Shown: piece after piece, positions 1 through 37,584 of the stretch | How positions within the stretch are numbered: the stretch's first letter is position 1 | How the letters are laid out: each line of letters begins with the position of its first letter | Assembly: GCA_027451805.1 (NCBI GenBank) | Contig: DAIDIF010000078.1 | Span: 1 to 42,752, forward strand | DNA from: Acidobacteriota bacterium | GTDB lineage: Bacteria; Acidobacteriota; Terriglobia; Terriglobales; SCQP01 | Direction: 5' to 3' | DNA: 42,752 nt | Translations under genes and position numbers: made by a program | Notes under the pieces: model-generated | Database searches by the model: none | The model's input: the letters and a program-made list of their open reading frames with translations, nothing else | What the model was told of the DNA's origin: nothing

Positions 1-3000
1 GTGCCAACCGCGACCTCGCAGCGCAGCGTGCCGGTGGGGCTATTGGAGGCGAACCGCCAACTGCTGAACCAGCAGTTGGCGGAGCGCGGCACGAAGTTGT
101 CGCTCACGCCGCTGCTGGGCTGGGCGGTGGTGCGGGCGGCGCAAGACTTCCCTGCCCTCAACAGCGCCTTCGCCCTGGCCGAGGGCCAGCCCGCGCGGAT
201 CGCGCGGGCGCACGTCAATCTGGGCCTGGCGGTGGACGTCGAACGCGCGGCCGGGCGGTCGCTGCTGGTGCCGGTAGTGAAGCAGGCCGAGACGATGACG
301 TTTGCCGGATTCGCCGAGGCGTGCGAGCGGCTGATCGGCGCGGCGCGCCGCGGCAAGATCGCGCCCGAGGATTTGCAGGGGGCGACGCTGAGCCTGACCA
401 ATCCGGGCACGCTGGGCACGCGCGCGTCGGTGCCGCGGCTGATGGCGGGCCAGTCGGCGATCGTGGCGGCGGGGGCGCTGGGGTATCCGCCCGGGTTTGA
501 GGCGGTGCCCGAGGCGACGCTGCGCGTGCTGGGCGTGGGCAAGAGCGTCACCCTGGCCTGCACCTACGACCACCGCATCGTGCAGGGGGCGGAGTCGGGC
601 GCGTTCCTGGCGCGGATCGAGGCGCTGCTGCGCGGCGCGGACGGGTTTTATGAGCGCCTCTTCACCGACCTGGGCATCGGCGTGAACCCGGTCCGGACGC
701 TGCCCGGCGCGGTGGCGGCGCCGGCGGCGGCCGCGGCCGAACCCGACCTGGACAGCGTGCGCCAGCAGGTCGCGGTCAACCAACTGGTGCATGCCTTCCG
801 CGTGCGCGGCCATCTCCAAGCCGACGTGGACCCGCTGCGCATGAAGGCGGTGGAAGCACATCCGGAACTCGATCCCGCGCATTACGGTCTCACGGCGGAC
901 GACCTGGAGCGGGCGTTCCTGTGCCCGCTGGCCGGCCGGCCGGCGGAGGCGGGCGAGACCTGCACCCTCAAGGACATCCTGCACGTGCTGCGCGCCACCT
1001 ACTGCGGCACGCTGGCGCTGGAGTTCATGCACCTGCAGCGGCTGGAGGAGCGGCAGTGGCTGCAGGCGCAGCTCGAGCCGCGCGCCGGCCGGCGCGACGT
1101 GGGCGCGGAGCAGCAGCGCCGGATCCTGCACAAGCTGACCGAGGCGGAGGAGTTCGAGCACCTGCTGCAGGCGCGCTTCGTCGGCCACAAGCGCTTCTCG
1201 CTGGAGGGCGCCGAGGCGCTGATTCCCGCGCTCGATGCCTATCTCGAGCGCGCGGCCGAGGCGGGCGCGGAGGAGATCGTGCTGGGCATGTCGCACCGCG
1301 GCCGGCTGAACGTGCTGGTGACGATCCTGGGCGTGTCGATGCGGGAGATGTTCTCCAAGTTCGAGGACCTCGATCCCGACAGCGTCGACGGCTCGGGCGA
1401 CGTGAAGTATCACCTCGGCGCGCTGGGCCGGCACACCACCGCCTCGGGGCGGGAGTTGGCGATCGAGATGATCAACAACCCCAGCCACCTGGAGGCGGTC
1501 GACCCGGTGACGGAGGGGAGCGCGCGGGCGCGGCAGTCGCTGCGCGGCGACGCCGAACACGGCGCCGGCCGCGGACGCCGGGTGATGCCGCTGCTCATCC
1601 ACGGTGACGCCGCCTTCGCCGGCCAGGGGGTGGTGGCGGAGACGCTGAATCTGTCGCAACTGGGCGGCTACCGCACCGGCGGGACGCTGCACTTCGTGGT
1701 CAACAACCAGATCGGCTTCACCACCTCGCCCGCCGGGGCACGCTCCTCGCTCTACTGCACCGACATCGCGCGCACCGTGCAGGCGCCGATCTTCCACGTC
1801 AACGGCGACGATCCCGAGGCGGTGGCGCGGGCCACGGAGCTGGCCTTCGCCTTCCGGCAGCGGTTCCAGAAGGACGTGGTGGTGGACATTGTCTGCTACC
1901 GGCGGCACGGCCACAACGAGGCCGACGATCCCTCGCTCACCGCCCCGGTGCTGTATCGCACCATCGACGAACACCCCTCGGTGCGCGCGCTCTACGCCGG
2001 CAAGCTGCACCAGGCGGGCGTGGCGCCGGATCCGGAGGCCGAGCGGCGCGCGGTGCGGCAGGCGCTGGAGGATGCCTCGGCGCGGCCGACGGCGATGTTC
2101 GACACCGACCCGGCCACCGGAACGGTGAGCGAGCCGCCGACGGCGGTGGCCGCGGCCACGCTGGCGGCGGCGGGCGAGCGGCTGGCGGCGCTACCCGAAG
2201 GCTTTCATCTCCACCCCAAGCTCAAGACGTTCCTGGAGCGGCGGCGGCAGGCGGCGGCGGGCCAGGTGGCGGTGGATTGGTCGCTGGCCGAAGCGCTCGC
2301 TCTGGGCACGCTGGCGCTGGAGGCGACGCCGGTGCGCCTCAGCGGCCAGGACACCGGGCGCGGCACGTTCAGCCAGCGGCACGCGGTGCTCTACGACCAC
2401 GAGACCGGCGCGCCCTACATCCCGCTGGCGCATTTGGCGCCGGAGCAGCAGCCGGTGGAGGTGTACGACTCGCTGCTGTCGGAAGAGGCGGCGCTGGGGT
2501 TCGAGTTTGGCTACGCCATGACCCACCCGACGGCGCTGGTGCTGTGGGAGGCGCAGTTCGGCGATTTCGCCAACGGCGCGCAGGTGATCATCGACCAGTT
2601 CCTGGCGGCGTCGCAGACCAAGTGGTCGCGCGCCTGCGGCCTGGGGTTGCTGCTGCCCCACGGCTTCGAGGGCCAGGGGCCGGAGCACTCGAGCGCGCGC
2701 ATCGAGCGCTTCCTGGAGCTCTCGGCCGAGGACAACTGGCGCATCGTGAACTGCACCAGCGCGGCGCAGTACTTTCATCTGCTGCGCAGCCAGGGCCTGC
2801 GGCGGCCGCGGCGGCCGCTGGTGGTGTTCACGCCGAAGAGCCTGCTGCGCCATCCCGATGTCGCCTCGCCCTTGAGCGCGCTGGCCGGCGGCCGCTTCGA
2901 GCCCGTGCTGGGCGACACCGGCACGGCGCCGGATGCGGTACGCAAGGTGCTCCTGTGCTCGGGCAAGGTATATTTCGACCTGATCAAAGCACGCAAGGCG

Positions 3001-3294
3001 AAGGCCGCCGGGGACACGGCCATCGTGCGCGTCGAGCAGCTCTATCCCTTCCCGGCAGCGGAACTGGAGACGGCCATGGCGCAGTACCCCGGCGCGCAGG
3101 AGCTGCGCTGGGTGCAGGAAGAGCCCGAAAACATGGGGGCGTGGACCTTCGCCGCGCCGCGGCTGCGCGAGTTGGCCGACGGCCGGCTCACGCTCAGCCA
3201 CGTCAGCCGCAAGCCCAGCCCCAGCCCCGCCACCGGCTCGCTCCGCCGCCACCAGCAGGAACAGGCGGCGCTGCTGGAGCAGGCGCTGGCCTAA
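1..3294 (+). CDS. kgd: Multifunctional 2-oxoglutarate decarboxylase/dehydrogenase, E2-E1 fusion (5' partial)
   Basis: This encodes the TCA-cycle enzyme that decarboxylates 2-oxoglutarate with thiamine diphosphate and passes the succinyl group to an attached E2-type acyltransferase domain. Residues 1-230 are the E2 catalytic domain (SLTNPGTLGT; TYDHRIVQGAESG near residue 190). After a linker follows the E1 part: SHRGRLNVL near 430, the TPP-binding stretch GDAAFAGQG to NNQIGFTT near 535-575, RRHGHNEADDPS near 635, and a C-terminal transketolase-like domain. The order matches actinobacterial Kgd/OdhA and not stand-alone SucA. The first codon shown is GTG, but the protein aligns in mid-domain with Kgd (IPTATS region), so the gene must begin upstream of the window. 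It is convergent with the HD-GYP gene. Function is confident; the fused architecture is seen directly. Confidence 0.93.
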   Translation: MPTATSQRSVPVGLLEANRQLLNQQLAERGTKLSLTPLLGWAVVRAAQDFPALNSAFALAEGQPARIARAHVNLGLAVDVERAAGRSLLVPVVKQAETMTFAGFAEACERLIGAARRGKIAPEDLQGATLSLTNPGTLGTRASVPRLMAGQSAIVAAGALGYPPGFEAVPEATLRVLGVGKSVTLACTYDHRIVQGAESGAFLARIEALLRGADGFYERLFTDLGIGVNPVRTLPGAVAAPAAAAAEPDLDSVRQQVAVNQLVHAFRVRGHLQADVDPLRMKAVEAHPELDPAHYGLTADDLERAFLCPLAGRPAEAGETCTLKDILHVLRATYCGTLALEFMHLQRLEERQWLQAQLEPRAGRRDVGAEQQRRILHKLTEAEEFEHLLQARFVGHKRFSLEGAEALIPALDAYLERAAEAGAEEIVLGMSHRGRLNVLVTILGVSMREMFSKFEDLDPDSVDGSGDVKYHLGALGRHTTASGRELAIEMINNPSHLEAVDPVTEGSARARQSLRGDAEHGAGRGRRVMPLLIHGDAAFAGQGVVAETLNLSQLGGYRTGGTLHFVVNNQIGFTTSPAGARSSLYCTDIARTVQAPIFHVNGDDPEAVARATELAFAFRQRFQKDVVVDIVCYRRHGHNEADDPSLTAPVLYRTIDEHPSVRALYAGKLHQAGVAPDPEAERRAVRQALEDASARPTAMFDTDPATGTVSEPPTAVAAATLAAAGERLAALPEGFHLHPKLKTFLERRRQAAAGQVAVDWSLAEALALGTLALEATPVRLSGQDTGRGTFSQRHAVLYDHETGAPYIPLAHLAPEQQPVEVYDSLLSEEAALGFEFGYAMTHPTALVLWEAQFGDFANGAQVIIDQFLAASQTKWSRACGLGLLLPHGFEGQGPEHSSARIERFLELSAEDNWRIVNCTSAAQYFHLLRSQGLRRPRRPLVVFTPKSLLRHPDVASPLSALAGGRFEPVLGDTGTAPDAVRKVLLCSGKVYFDLIKARKAKAAGDTAIVRVEQLYPFPAAELETAMAQYPGAQELRWVQEEPENMGAWTFAAPRLRELADGRLTLSHVSRKPSPSPATGSLRRHQQEQAALLEQALA

Positions 3295-3340: not shown

Positions 3341-3967
3341 TCAGGCGGAGGCGGCGGCGGCTTCCTGGGGCGCGGGCGTATAGATGTGCTGCGCGTAATC
3401 CACGAAGAGGGCGACCACCTCGGGATCGAACTGCGTGCCCGCCGCCTGGCCGAGGCGGGCGCAGGCTTCCGTGACCGGCATGCCGCGGCGGTAGGGGCGG
3501 TCGCTGATCATGGCGTGGAAGGCGTCCACCACCGCCAGGATGCGGGCACCGAGCGGAATCTCGCGGCCCTTGAGCTTGCCCGGATAGCCCAAGCCGTCCC
3601 AACGCTCGTGATGATGCAGGATATAGAGCGCCACCCACTCGAAGCCGGGCACCTGGCGCAGAATCGCCCAGCCGTATTCGGGATGGCGGCGCATGTTGGC
3701 GGCTTCGGTGGCATCCAGCCCCTGCTCCTTGTGCAGCACCTGGTCGGGGATGCCGATCTTGCCAATGTCGTGCAGGGTGGCGCTGATCTCCAGCTCGCGC
3801 AGTTGGCGCGTTTCCCAAACGTAATGGGCGCCCACGGCGATGGCGAGCTCGACGATTTGGGTGCTATGCACCCCGGTCCCCAGGTCGCGCAAGTCCACCA
3901 GCGCGCCCAAGGCGCAGGCCACTGCGTCCACGTACGACGCCGGAACGGCCTCAGCGGCCATGGCCAT
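3341..3967 (-). CDS. Stand-alone HD-GYP domain phosphodiesterase-like protein
   Basis: This is a cytoplasmic HD-GYP protein of about 206-208 residues, the family that degrades cyclic di-GMP. The HD motif (LHDIGKIGIPD) and the GYP signature (HHERWDGLGYP) are both intact, as is the later DAFHAMISDRPYR motif. No receiver, PAS or membrane segment is present, so the sensory input must come from elsewhere. The ORF track extends to 4180, but that N-terminal stretch is the out-of-frame shadow of the protease gene. I place the start at one of two neighbouring ATGs (3967 or 3961), neither with a clear ribosome site. The gene therefore overlaps the protease stop by 11-17 nt, which suggests translational coupling. 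Enzymatic activity is inferred from the motifs; the substrate is not shown. Confidence 0.85.
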   Translation of the reverse strand: MAMAAEAVPASYVDAVACALGALVDLRDLGTGVHSTQIVELAIAVGAHYVWETRQLRELEISATLHDIGKIGIPDQVLHKEQGLDATEAANMRRHPEYGWAILRQVPGFEWVALYILHHHERWDGLGYPGKLKGREIPLGARILAVVDAFHAMISDRPYRRGMPVTEACARLGQAAGTQFDPEVVALFVDYAQHIYTPAPQEAAAASA

Positions 3968-5867
3968 GGTCGCCGCGATTCTGATGCGGCGGCGGCGGCG
4001 CAGTCCGAAGCGCCCCCAGCACCTGCACCATGCCGTACCCCAGGGCGCCGTTGAGATCGCCGGGAATGGAGGGGTTCGACGTGCTCTCGATGTCGCTGCG
4101 GTTGGCGCTGCCGCTCTGGCGCAACTGCACCAGCAGCGCCGCTTCGCCGGCCACCACCGGTGTGCTGAACGAGGTGCCACTGGAGGTCGCCCAGATCAGG
4201 CCGAAGCCGGGGAAAGTGGTGAACAACTGCACGCCGGGCGCGGCCACGTCGGCATCCACGATCCCGCTCGAGGGATCGTAGTTGGAGAAGCCGGCGCGAT
4301 AGAAGACCGGATTGGGGATGCAGCCGGGAGTGGGGTTGCTGGCGCTGGGCGCCGGGGCGTTGCAGCCATCAACCGCCCCCACGCCCATGACGCCGGGCAA
4401 GGAGGCGGGATAGACTGGCACGGCGCTGTCGCTGTTGCCGGCGGCGGCGACCACAACTATACCCTTGCTAACCGCCTCGGCGATGGCCGCCCGGACGTAG
4501 GGGTCGAGACCGGTGGCGCTGAAGCTGAGGTTGATGACGTTGGCGTGATGGTCAATCGCCCAAGTCAACGACTGATAGATCGCCGCCGCGGTCGCGGTGC
4601 CGCCCGGGCCGAAGGCCTTGATGGGCAGAATCTTGGCTTCCGGGGCGACCAGATGGATGAGGCCCGCGACCGAAGTGCCGTGCCCGAAGTCGGGGTCGCA
4701 GCTCAGGATATTTTCGATCAGCTTGAACACCAGGCTGATCAACTGCTGATTGCCGTTGAGCACCGAAGCGGTGGACTGATTCAGATAAGACAGGGTGTTG
4801 GGCAGGATGGTACCGGCGGCGAGCGGCGGGTCGGGGCAGCCGTTCAGCACCGAGGCCGTGCTCTGGTCCAGCAGCCAGTCCACACCGCCGCGCGCGCCGT
4901 TGAGCACCGAGGCGGTGCTCTGATCGAGGCCAAAGCCGCCGCTGTCGAGCGTGCTCAGCGTCGTGGCGCCGTTAAGCACCGAGGCGGTGCTTTGGCCGTC
5001 CAGCGAGGTCCCTGAGGCCTGACCCAGATCGGCGAAGGCGGACCAGTTGGGCGAGTTGTCGTAGAAGTTCCAGCCCTCGTGCCGCAGGAGCACCTTGCGC
5101 AGCACCGGGTTGAACTGATCCACACCGTTATCAATCAGCGCCACGACCACGCCCTTGCCGGTGGCGATGTCGTGCGCCTCTTCGCCGGCGGCGACCTGCC
5201 CGACCAACGGCTGATTCACATACTGCGCGGGCGCACGGCTGCCGAAGTAGTTGACTTCCGAGTTGAGCACCGAGGCCGTGCTCTGGTCCAGGGTCACGGT
5301 TTCGCCGTTCAGGAAGGAAACTGTGGTCTGCCCGTTGAGGACCGAGGCCGTGGACTGTCCGTTCAACACCGAGGCCGTGGACTGCCCGTTCAACACCGAA
5401 GCCGTGGACTGCCCGTTCAACACCGAAGCCGTGGACTGTCCGTTCAGCACCGAAGCCGTGGACTGTCCGTTCAGCACCGAAGCCGTGGACTGTCCGTTCA
5501 ACACCGAAGCCGTGGACTGTCCGTTCAGCACCGAAGCCGTGGACTGCCCGTTCATGCGAACGTAGGTATTAAGACTGGCGGTACCCGCGGAGGGATCGGA
5601 CTTGATCTCGTTCAGCAGTTGCTGATCGCTCGTGCCATTGGTGGAAGTGACCAGATAAAGGTCGCGGTGGGGGTTGAGGCGGACCGAGGTGACGGAATAC
5701 CGGGCGTCGAAGGCGGCAACCTGGTTGGGCTTGAGCGTCACCAGGACGCCATCGCTGGTGACGGTGCCGGCGAGCGCAACGCAGGTTCCCAGCAGCAGTC
5801 CGGCCGTGATGGCGGCCAAGGCCATCGGACGCCGGCAACAACGATTCACCCAAGTAGCGACAGTCAT
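3951..5867 (-). CDS. Secreted S8 subtilisin-like protease with QSTASVLN nonapeptide repeats
   Basis: This is a 638-residue subtilase. Starting at ATG 5867 gives a good ribosome site (GGGAG, 8 nt away) and an N-terminus with Arg residues followed by a hydrophobic signal segment (MALAAITAGLLLG, cleavage after VALA). A prodomain-like region (about 35-105) precedes eight perfect tandem GQSTASVLN units (107-178) and a degenerate ninth. The catalytic domain follows with Asp in ALIDNGVD (246), His in DFGHGTSVAG (396), oxyanion Asn in AAAGNSD (478) and Ser in SSGTSFSTP (566). The Asp-His spacing of 150 residues is far longer than the 30-60 usual in subtilases; the extra segment carries four more exact QSTASVLN copies. 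The C-terminus is Pro/His-rich. All catalytic residues are intact. It lies between a beta-sandwich-like gene and an HD-GYP gene on the same strand. The role of the repeats is unknown. Confidence 0.9.
   Translation of the reverse strand: MTVATWVNRCCRRPMALAAITAGLLLGTCVALAGTVTSDGVLVTLKPNQVAAFDARYSVTSVRLNPHRDLYLVTSTNGTSDQQLLNEIKSDPSAGTASLNTYVRMNGQSTASVLNGQSTASVLNGQSTASVLNGQSTASVLNGQSTASVLNGQSTASVLNGQSTASVLNGQSTASVLNGQTTVSFLNGETVTLDQSTASVLNSEVNYFGSRAPAQYVNQPLVGQVAAGEEAHDIATGKGVVVALIDNGVDQFNPVLRKVLLRHEGWNFYDNSPNWSAFADLGQASGTSLDGQSTASVLNGATTLSTLDSGGFGLDQSTASVLNGARGGVDWLLDQSTASVLNGCPDPPLAAGTILPNTLSYLNQSTASVLNGNQQLISLVFKLIENILSCDPDFGHGTSVAGLIHLVAPEAKILPIKAFGPGGTATAAAIYQSLTWAIDHHANVINLSFSATGLDPYVRAAIAEAVSKGIVVVAAAGNSDSAVPVYPASLPGVMGVGAVDGCNAPAPSASNPTPGCIPNPVFYRAGFSNYDPSSGIVDADVAAPGVQLFTTFPGFGLIWATSSGTSFSTPVVAGEAALLVQLRQSGSANRSDIESTSNPSIPGDLNGALGYGMVQVLGALRTAPPPPHQNRGDHGHGR
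4755..5285 (-). repeat. Five dispersed exact QSTASVLN copies within the protease gene
   Basis: Exact octapeptide copies lie at 5262-5285 (just before the catalytic domain) and at 4971-4994, 4899-4922, 4842-4865 and 4755-4778 (inside the Asp-His insertion). Three are introduced by LDQ, one by LDGQ and one by LNQ. Four use AGC for the first Ser where the tandem units use TCC, and Thr alternates ACG/ACC, yet the peptide never changes. Weaker echoes (GATTLSTLD, PNTLSYLN) sit between them. Confidence 0.95.
5307..5552 (-). repeat. In-frame 27-bp tandem array encoding GQSTASVLN (8 perfect units plus 1 degenerate)
   Basis: Eight 27-bp units (5334-5552) encode identical GQSTASVLN nonapeptides, followed by a diverged unit encoding GQTTVSFLN (5307-5333). 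The units differ only at synonymous positions: Gly GGA/GGG, Ala GCC/GCT, Val GTC/GTG and Leu CTC/TTG/CTG. There are no spacers and the frame is kept throughout, so this is a coding repeat and not a CRISPR array. Confidence 0.97.
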
Positions 5868-5939
5868 TTGCACTCTCCCGTTGGTATCCATGGCTGCACT
5901 GCTGCTGCTCTTCTCATTTTCGGCGGGATGCACCATGCG

Positions 5940-5953
5940 CTTGAACGTTCAAG
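5940..5953. promoter_or_regulatory. Perfect 14-bp palindrome upstream of the subtilase gene
   Basis: CTTGAACGTTCAAG is a perfect palindrome about 73 bp before the protease start and overlapping the TGA of the preceding gene. With no loop it is a better candidate for a dimeric DNA-binding protein site than for an RNA hairpin. A related palindrome (TTGA-N4-TCAA) lies upstream of the preceding gene. Confidence 0.35.
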
Positions 5954-6437
5954 GCATGGGCACCGGCGCGATGTCATAGCGCCGGCCGCCGGCGACCAGT
6001 CCCAGACGCCACGGCCCGTTATTTGCAGGCGTCAGGGCGAACTCCCCCCACTCGTTGGTCCGCACGGCGCGCGACAGGCCGCCGGCGGCTTCCTCGCATA
6101 ATTCGACCGCGCAGCCGGCCCAAGCTTCGCCCGAAGGGCAAAAGACCTGACCCACCACACTCCAACCTTCCTGGCGGCCGAGCCGCTCGACCATGACCTC
6201 CAGCGCCGGAGAATCGGCGCTGTCGGACTCGAGCTCATAGACGCAGTGGCGACGGGTACGCAGGCCGCGCACGCTCAGCGCGGGCCCGGTCACACTATCA
6301 AATTGCAACCTGGCAGCAGAGAAACGAGGGCGAAATTTTGCCGACGCTGGGGCGATCGCCCGGGCCAACGCACACTGTGTGCTACTGCTGGGCACGGGTT
6401 CAATATCCCACGAACCAAAGGAAAAATGCTCGGCCAT
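5949..6437 (-). CDS. Hypothetical protein with C-terminal carboxypeptidase-regulatory-like beta-sandwich
   Basis: This 162-residue protein lacks a signal peptide. ATG 6437 is chosen because GGAAGTGAG lies just upstream; the longer ORF to 6542 has no support. The N-terminal half (FSFGSWDIEPVP onward) is unrecognised. The C-terminal half (WSVVGQVFCPSGEAWAG, then TNEWGEFAL and GPWRLGLVAGGRRYDI) has the pattern of carboxypeptidase-regulatory/transthyretin-like beta-sandwich domains, where a G-x-V-xx-PSG strand is followed by T-xE-GEF. It lies 81 bp upstream of the subtilase on the same strand, with its own upstream palindrome and TATAAT box. I infer that the two act together, perhaps by binding or regulation; nothing catalytic is visible. 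Confidence 0.7.
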   Translation of the reverse strand: MAEHFSFGSWDIEPVPSSSTQCALARAIAPASAKFRPRFSAARLQFDSVTGPALSVRGLRTRRHCVYELESDSADSPALEVMVERLGRQEGWSVVGQVFCPSGEAWAGCAVELCEEAAGGLSRAVRTNEWGEFALTPANNGPWRLGLVAGGRRYDIAPVPMP

Positions 6438-6492
6438 AGGACTCACTTCCGGGGGAATAGCGAGTCTGCCCCTTATCCGAACCAAACCAGTC

Positions 6493-6507
6493 ACTGGCGA
6501 AGCCAGT
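6493..6507. other. Small inverted repeat in the leader of the 162-residue gene
   Basis: ACTGGC-gaa-GCCAGT forms a perfect 6-bp stem with a 3-nt loop. If the TATAAT at 6525-6530 is used, this hairpin falls in the 5' untranslated region of the minus-strand transcript. A function is not evident. Confidence 0.3.
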
Positions 6508-6524
6508 CTTGGTACAACGCGCCG

Positions 6525-6530
6525 ATTATA
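6525..6530 (-). promoter_or_regulatory. Possible -10 box (TATAAT) for the hypothetical-subtilase-HD-GYP operon
   Basis: On the minus strand a perfect TATAAT lies about 88 bp before the start at 6437, in the only sizeable gap (155 bp) upstream of this gene trio. No good -35 hexamer is found at 16-18 bp spacing, so the call is tentative. Confidence 0.35.
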
Positions 6531-6575
6531 TCGGAACGGCAAGAAGGAAGGGGGAAAAGTTTCATTATGTCAGTA

Positions 6576-26843: not shown

Positions 26844-26920
26844 AGGCGCGTAGCTCAGTTGGTTAGAGCGCTACCTTGACACGGTAGAGGTCTGGGGTTC
26901 GAATCCCCACGTGCCTACCA
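26844..26920 (+). tRNA. tRNA-Val (GAC)
   Basis: A cloverleaf can be folded: acceptor AGGCGCG pairs with CGTGCCT (one G-U pair), D-arm with TAGCTCAGTTGGTTAGAGC, anticodon stem CTACC/GGTAG around loop TTGACAC (anticodon GAC, valine), and T-arm GGGGTTCGAATCCCC. The 3' CCA is encoded. It stands alone between mutY and the convergent CBS gene. Confidence 0.95.
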
Positions 26921-37494: not shown

Positions 37495-37584
37495 TGGCGG
37501 AGAGGGAGGGATTCGAACCCCCGGTACCCTTTCGGGTACACACGCTTTCGAGGCGCGCGCCTTCAACCACTCGGCCACCTCTCC
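37495..37584 (-). tRNA. tRNA-Ser (CGA)
   Basis: On the minus strand GGAGAGG pairs with CCTCTCC. The anticodon loop CTCGAAA gives anticodon CGA (serine), and a long variable arm (TGTACCCGAAAGGGTAC) is present as required for class II tRNAs. The T-arm is GGGGGTTCGAATCCCCC. Discriminator G and CCA are encoded (CCA at 37497-37495). It is convergent with the radical SAM gene. Confidence 0.96.

Follow-up and report, generated by a model that had tools for sequence, protein, structure and literature searches.

Octapeptides repeated identically within secreted subtilases of Acidobacteriota: evidence for coordinated evolution and a possible peptide signal

A secreted subtilase of an acidobacterium, encoded in the 42,752-nucleotide stretch of DNA analysed here (the window), contains 13 exact copies of the octapeptide QSTASVLN, and we propose, at what we judge to be evenly balanced chances, that this octapeptide may be a signal that is set free from the secreted protease, then imported, and recognised by a TPR protein. 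Octapeptides of related subtilases are identical within a protein and between paralogues of a genome, diverge between genomes, and occur together with importer genes and, in both Acidobacteriota and Deinococcota, with TPR proteins. A multi-copy signal peptide would be the simplest account of this combination.

The window subtilase is a protein of 661 residues encoded on the minus strand (3951-5936). Its membership in the Peptidase S8 family is clear (E=2.4e-31; PF00082 at 109.6 bits, with a curated cut-off of 21.8), and its catalytic triad is complete, with the motifs DNGVD, FGHGT and GTSFS in that order and with Asp269, His419 and Ser589 encoded at 5130-5132, 4680-4682 and 4170-4172 (all minus strand). 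A propeptide-like N-terminal domain (GVLVTL...DLYLVTS...; 5571-5747, minus strand) is conserved in homologues. While the catalytic domain and the triad are those of the S8 subtilisin family, the proteins described here differ from it by an insertion of identical octapeptides, placed between Asp and His of the triad, at the propeptide junction, or at both. Elsewhere, the 5′ edge of the window interrupts a gene for a Kgd-like multifunctional 2-oxoglutarate decarboxylase/dehydrogenase (1-3294, plus strand; E2 catalytic domain fused to E1, NF008907 at 1480 bits), and the window contains two tRNA genes (26844-26917, plus strand, and 37498-37584, minus strand).

The repeats form two blocks on the minus strand, and the coordinates originally assigned to them, 4755-5552, span both. 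Block 1 (5262-5552) lies between the propeptide and the catalytic domain and holds nine exact copies; block 2 (4755-4997), with four, is an insertion within the catalytic domain that falls between Asp and His of the triad. As first described, there are eight tandem GQSTASVLN units, one degenerate unit and five further exact copies. The tandem array (5334-5546), in which each of the eight exact copies is followed by a Gly, has QSTASVLN starting at residues 131, 140, 149, 158, 167, 176, 185 and 194 (copies 1-4 at 5523-5546, 5496-5519, 5469-5492 and 5442-5465; copies 5-8 at 5415-5438, 5388-5411, 5361-5384 and 5334-5357), and the degenerate ninth unit, GQTTVSFLN, occupies residues 202-210 (5307-5333). 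The other exact copies start at residues 218, 315, 339, 358 and 387. The first of them, copy 9 (5262-5285), sits at the junction of propeptide and catalytic domain, which is the site of the single block-1 copy in many relatives, and copies 10-13 make up block 2 (4971-4994, 4899-4922, 4842-4865 and 4755-4778).

A DNA-level search of codon combinations for STASVL[ND] in the 3.16-Mb genome to which the window belongs gave 20 matches, 13 in the window subtilase and seven in one paralogue (contig C125), as compared to 0 for the reversed pattern that served as a control. The repeat thus is not due to chance. A third paralogue (contig C186) ends at the contig edge just past QSTA. In four genomes scanned for the exact pattern, octapeptides were found nowhere outside the subtilases. 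A likeness to lanthipeptides, to which weak SapB/AmfS matches of the paralogue had pointed, was dismissed because the repeat has no cysteines.

The check suggested originally, whether the repeat recurs in subtilases of related genomes, shows it to be widespread: two or more identical octapeptides are present in 78 of 85 related subtilases from Acidobacteriota; these 85 are matches of three homology searches rather than a random sample, and their genomes are partly fragmented MAGs, with gene calls in the loci being our own ORF readings. The 78 repeat-bearing proteins display 32 different octapeptide sequences of the approximate form QSTxx[IV]L[DEN] (for instance QRTVAVLD, QSTGVILD, QSTTSILD, QSVTPILE, QSTVGVVD and QSLRAILE), as found with a search pattern that demanded a final D, E or N. 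Their two sites are those of the window subtilase. Usually a single copy lies at the propeptide junction and at least two immediately ahead of the catalytic His loop; in other proteins, only the latter are present. It had been reasoned that homologues without the repeat, or with freely varying residues, would speak against selection on the peptide. The homologues do have the repeat; its sequence changes between proteins, with copies agreeing within a protein and often within a genome. Confinement to a single genus was rejected, because the wider family emerged when the phylum was searched with the homologue of G009, which has two copies of QSTVGVLN and comes from a different genus of the family.

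Within the genus of the window genome, a syntenic orthologue (G002) has 17 exact copies, and another congener (G003) has 13 copies in which Q is replaced by G in every one (GSTASVLN). In a further congener (G001), the orthologue is split over two contigs and a tandem paralogue pair is present in addition; the two repeat-bearing subtilases in tandem at the end of its contig C347 (locus L072) resemble the tandem pairs of the genus g16. The orthologous subtilase of G004, which adjoins the same threonine aldolase gene, has neither propeptide nor octapeptides, and its catalytic residues are kept. As a separate observation, a subtilase of the genome G034 (locus L084) has 15 exact copies of QSTGAILD, and the groups that these form are separated by another repeat of greater length (GATRKQFGSARGIHRN).

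One explanation for the identity of the copies is homotypic beta stacking, by which strands would pair within and between molecules in the manner of a functional amyloid. The STASVL core is beta-prone, the N-G or D-Q joints are turn-like, and strands are drawn over the array in an AF2 model, albeit one of low confidence (four input sequences, mean pLDDT 34). The structure prediction that had been recommended for the repeat returned a confident model only for the propeptide-like domain, a beta-alpha-beta-beta-alpha-beta fold (pLDDT about 73-84, model residues 34-92), and was uninformative for the repeats themselves, where pLDDT is about 33-40. Stacking is also difficult to reconcile with the many proteins that have only 2-3 copies, up to ~100 residues apart, and with the varying spacing between units, and it leaves the gene cluster described below unexplained, such that we regard it as improbable. 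The linkers vary even within the genus (G, GG, D, SD, DD), so that the residues are kept, and not a strict period. Among the roles proposed originally, a strict-period solenoid is likewise disfavoured by spacings of 8, 9, 10 or many residues, and the conserved gene neighbourhood points to a role that was not among them, namely reading of the peptide in trans.

The codons used for the octapeptides bear on whether the identity is maintained by selection or by homogenisation of the DNA. That all base differences are synonymous holds by construction among exact QSTASVLN copies. The first Ser is, as first observed, encoded by AGC in four dispersed copies (9-12) and by TCC in the remaining ones. Over the 78 proteins, two identical octapeptides of the same protein differ on average in 4.20 codons, while a random draw of codons from that gene would give 4.77. 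The amino acids thus stay identical at synonymous sites that are near saturation, which strongly supports the selection on the peptide that had been postulated. Furthermore, copies of QSTTSILD at the same position in three related genomes differ in 2.76 of 24 nucleotides across species, whereas copies within a genome differ in 5.37 of 24, and Ser5 is encoded by TCN in some copies and by AGY in others within one gene. The copies therefore have separate DNA histories, and their identity is kept, or changes in parallel, at the protein level.

These data largely refute neutral concerted evolution, in which slippage and gene conversion would homogenise copies that have no function, and we give it hardly any credence. 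What speaks for it is the window's eight-unit array, which is partly a recent expansion: across all 13 copies of the window subtilase, pairs differ in 2.46 codons, as opposed to 4.31 expected from random codons. The same does not apply to the dispersed copies, the paralogue or the relatives. Hence, the claim that recent duplication does not explain the identity stands for the latter, but not entirely for the tandem array, and gene conversion and slippage were rejected except for this recent growth. A DNA-level element was rejected as well, since the codons vary freely.

A comparison of paralogues indicates at which level the octapeptide sequence is set. In the genus g16, a maximum-likelihood tree of the octapeptide-free part of the subtilases, from the His loop to the C-terminus, separates two well-supported clades of tandem paralogues, and the octapeptides agree by genome, not by paralogue clade. 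Both paralogues carry QSTAGILD in G539, QSTAGILE in G040, QSTSTVLE in G624, and QSTTSILD in G520, G609 and G080; in the last three genomes, QSTTSILD occurs seven times, always within the two paralogue genes. In three genomes (G558, G455 and G497), an orphan subtilase at an unlinked locus shares its octapeptide with a cluster-borne one, and in G497 and G558 a further subtilase has a different octapeptide. From this matching of paralogues within genomes, we infer that the octapeptide is most likely read by some recogniser that is common to the genome or the cluster.

The paralogues are also pertinent to the possibility that the octapeptides serve autoinhibition or self-processing, that is, that they are pseudosubstrates or self-cleavage sites that match the substrate cleft of their own protein and co-vary with its specificity. 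The location of block 1 at the junction of propeptide and catalytic domain and of block 2 in the loop that leads up to His of the triad would suit such a role, as would the joint absence of propeptide and octapeptides from the G004 protein with its intact catalytic residues. However, paralogues of one genome share the exact peptide despite diverged catalytic domains, and subtilases rarely require eight exact residues. Since this explanation also leaves unaccounted for the presence of 13-18 copies and the conserved TPR partners, we consider it unlikely, albeit less so than stacking.

The gene neighbourhood in Acidobacteriota offers candidates for a recogniser. The transport part of the cluster consists of two BPD_transp_1 permeases and one solute-binding protein (SBP_bac_5). 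The other members are an ECF sigma factor, a TPR-CHAT protein of ~950 residues, a protein of ~200 residues, either one subtilase or two in tandem, and in many cases an HD-GYP protein. The ~200-residue protein has an Hx4Cx2C motif and is putatively anti-sigma-like. Genes for sigma factor, CHAT protein, anti-sigma-like protein and subtilase were found together in 31 of 45 loci from several acidobacterial families, 25 of the 31 also having the transporter genes; the loci were selected by flank length, and several others are interrupted by contig ends. The CHAT domain of the cluster protein scores 213 bits, and its His and Cys motifs are present (HIATHG and SGCGTG in locus L162, HIAAHG and SGCGTA in L195). 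The SBP_bac_5 and BPD_transp_1 genes reach no NCBIfam equivalog cut-off. A scan for viral contigs found nothing, and PADLOC gave only generic subtilase and TPR matches, plus a weak IetS match.

In the window genome, the cluster is dispersed, with a relative of the anti-sigma-like gene and the HD-GYP gene staying beside the subtilase. Directly downstream lies the HD-GYP type phosphohydrolase (HD_5; 3341-4180, minus strand), the same neighbour as in many relatives. Directly upstream, a protein of 197 residues (5949-6542, minus strand) has a weak CarboxypepD_reg match and orthologues upstream of the subtilase in G001 and G002. We judge it to be a relative of the C-terminal part of the ~200-residue anti-sigma-like protein; a zinc-finger-like N-terminus is not recognisable in it. 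Permeases, solute-binding protein and TPR-CHAT are together on contig C195, and a TPR-CHAT protein of this type is present in G000, G001 (in part), G002 and G003. The most complete congener, G004, has no cognate TPR-CHAT, its sole CHAT protein being 31% identical in the CHAT domain only. This absence coincides with that of the octapeptides and is suggestive, but only suggestive, as a single co-loss.

The adjacent CHAT gene with its His and Cys motifs raises the possibility that the octapeptide, with its Asp, Asn or Glu end, is the cleavage site of this caspase-like protease. The octapeptides found do end in D, E or N, though the search pattern demanded this. The subtilase has a signal peptide and the CHAT protein, as read from its sequence, has none evident, and the partners in Deinococcus have TPR but no protease domain, such that cleavage by CHAT seems very improbable.

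Under the signalling proposal, the secreted subtilase would be the multi-copy precursor of a pheromone-like octapeptide and probably also the processing protease. After export, the copies would be excised from it; the Opp-type (SBP_bac_5) transporter encoded in the cluster would import the octapeptide, and in the cytoplasm the TPR region of TPR-CHAT would bind it. CHAT would then cleave the ~200-residue anti-sigma-like protein and thereby free the ECF sigma factor. From excision and import through TPR binding and CHAT cleavage to sigma release, this is a course of events that we infer. Several observations count against it. Excision of the block-2 copies, which lie within the catalytic domain, would nick the enzyme, and transporters of the SBP_bac_5 type are also used for nickel or for peptides as nutrients. 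In three genomes (G006, G011 and G013), two copies of QYAMAVVN are kept and a CHAT protein was not found, while the full or near-full clusters of L185 (G428, contig C53) and L210 (G460) contain a subtilase with no exact repeat. In partial Mantel tests, TPR-CHAT did not stand out, as octapeptide distance correlates similarly with the distances of CHAT, solute-binding protein and anti-sigma-like protein.

A comparable arrangement exists in Deinococcota. Among 14 subtilases in 13 records, with the Deinococcus proteins found by tblastn of plasmids, 13 carry other repeated peptides of 6-10 residues, which in Deinococcus sit at the propeptide junction: TAGAFV (four copies, in two species), GGAAIWAV, AKGLWVN, LGARPIWIW and GGSRSIWASG (two each), GSGTIGLW and KISMWAGG (four each), GSGTVGLW (three), and repeats of GDGLGVW. 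The homologue of Allomeiothermus has no repeated peptide. In 11 of 12 repeat-bearing records, the next gene encodes a TPR protein, with HD and/or GGDEF/EAL domains in ten, so that the two phyla differ in output domains and have in common the repeat-bearing subtilase and the TPR protein. The same logic would apply in Deinococcus, with output via TPR proteins with HD-GYP or GGDEF/EAL. The TPR regions of the two species with four TAGAFV copies are only 62% identical. On plasmid 1 of D. deserti (L229, 4368-6923), adjacent S8 peptidases have different peptides (YNAWSSG, four copies; GSFGAWAS, three copies), and no TPR gene adjoins this pair, which argues against signalling. On plasmid 3 of D. radiodurans DRR11 (L221, 6748-10622), the repeat subtilase is followed by a TPR gene, a transposase and an HD+GGDEF gene; as TPR, HD and GGDEF form one protein in other species, this TPR protein looks to have been interrupted by a transposon.

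The proposed pathway resembles the RRNPPA systems, in which propeptides with tandem pheromone copies are processed outside the cell, and the pheromone is imported by Opp and bound by a TPR receptor (PMC9765709, PMC11343458). With Rap-Phr, NprR-NprX, PlcR-PapR and AimR-AimP it would share a short, often tandem secreted peptide, Opp import and a cytoplasmic TPR receptor, here putatively the TPR-CHAT of the cluster and the TPR-HD or TPR-GGDEF-EAL proteins of Deinococcus, whose cytoplasmic location is presumed. It differs in that a complete subtilase, with an ORF of roughly 400-690 residues, would take the place of the small dedicated propeptide as precursor, that the TPR proteins have CHAT, HD, GGDEF or EAL domains and no HTH found by Pfam, and that the hosts are diderm Acidobacteriota and Deinococcota, whereas TPR-based peptide signalling has so far been surveyed in Firmicutes (PMC9765709). 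A second parallel is type III-E CRISPR, where a TPR-CHAT protease cleaves a sigma inhibitor (PMC10028731). In the cluster, as in CASP/Craspase (Cas7-11, Csx29, Csx30, CASP-sigma), a TPR-CHAT protein with a His/Cys dyad is found beside a sigma factor of ECF type and a putative sigma inhibitor, and the CHAT domain of the window genome matches Csx29 structures. However, the NCBIfam equivalog for Csx29 scores 57 bits with a cut-off of 300, the partners are a transporter and a subtilase, and no CRISPR part (Cas7-11, crRNA array) was seen by eye in the loci.

In the open-access literature, to which our search was confined, we found no description of QSTASVL or of the gene cluster. The subtilases with many copies of a lineage-specific signal of 6-10 residues and their TPR receptors, coupled to cascades of caspase-like CHAT and sigma factor in Acidobacteriota or to cyclic-di-GMP turnover in Deinococcota, may constitute a new class of diderm peptide communication, a possibility that we rate somewhat below even. 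If this is true, TPR-based peptide signalling would extend to these two phyla, and a protease would act as its own signal precursor. The stand-alone TPR-CHAT/sigma modules, relatives of the type III-E CRISPR protease, would then have a trigger, and a set of peptides with their matching receptors would be available for direct testing. Should the signalling proposal prove wrong, the octapeptides still are identical within proteins and between paralogues and divergent between genomes, with synonymous sites near saturation. This clear instance of coordinated evolution calls for a partner in trans.
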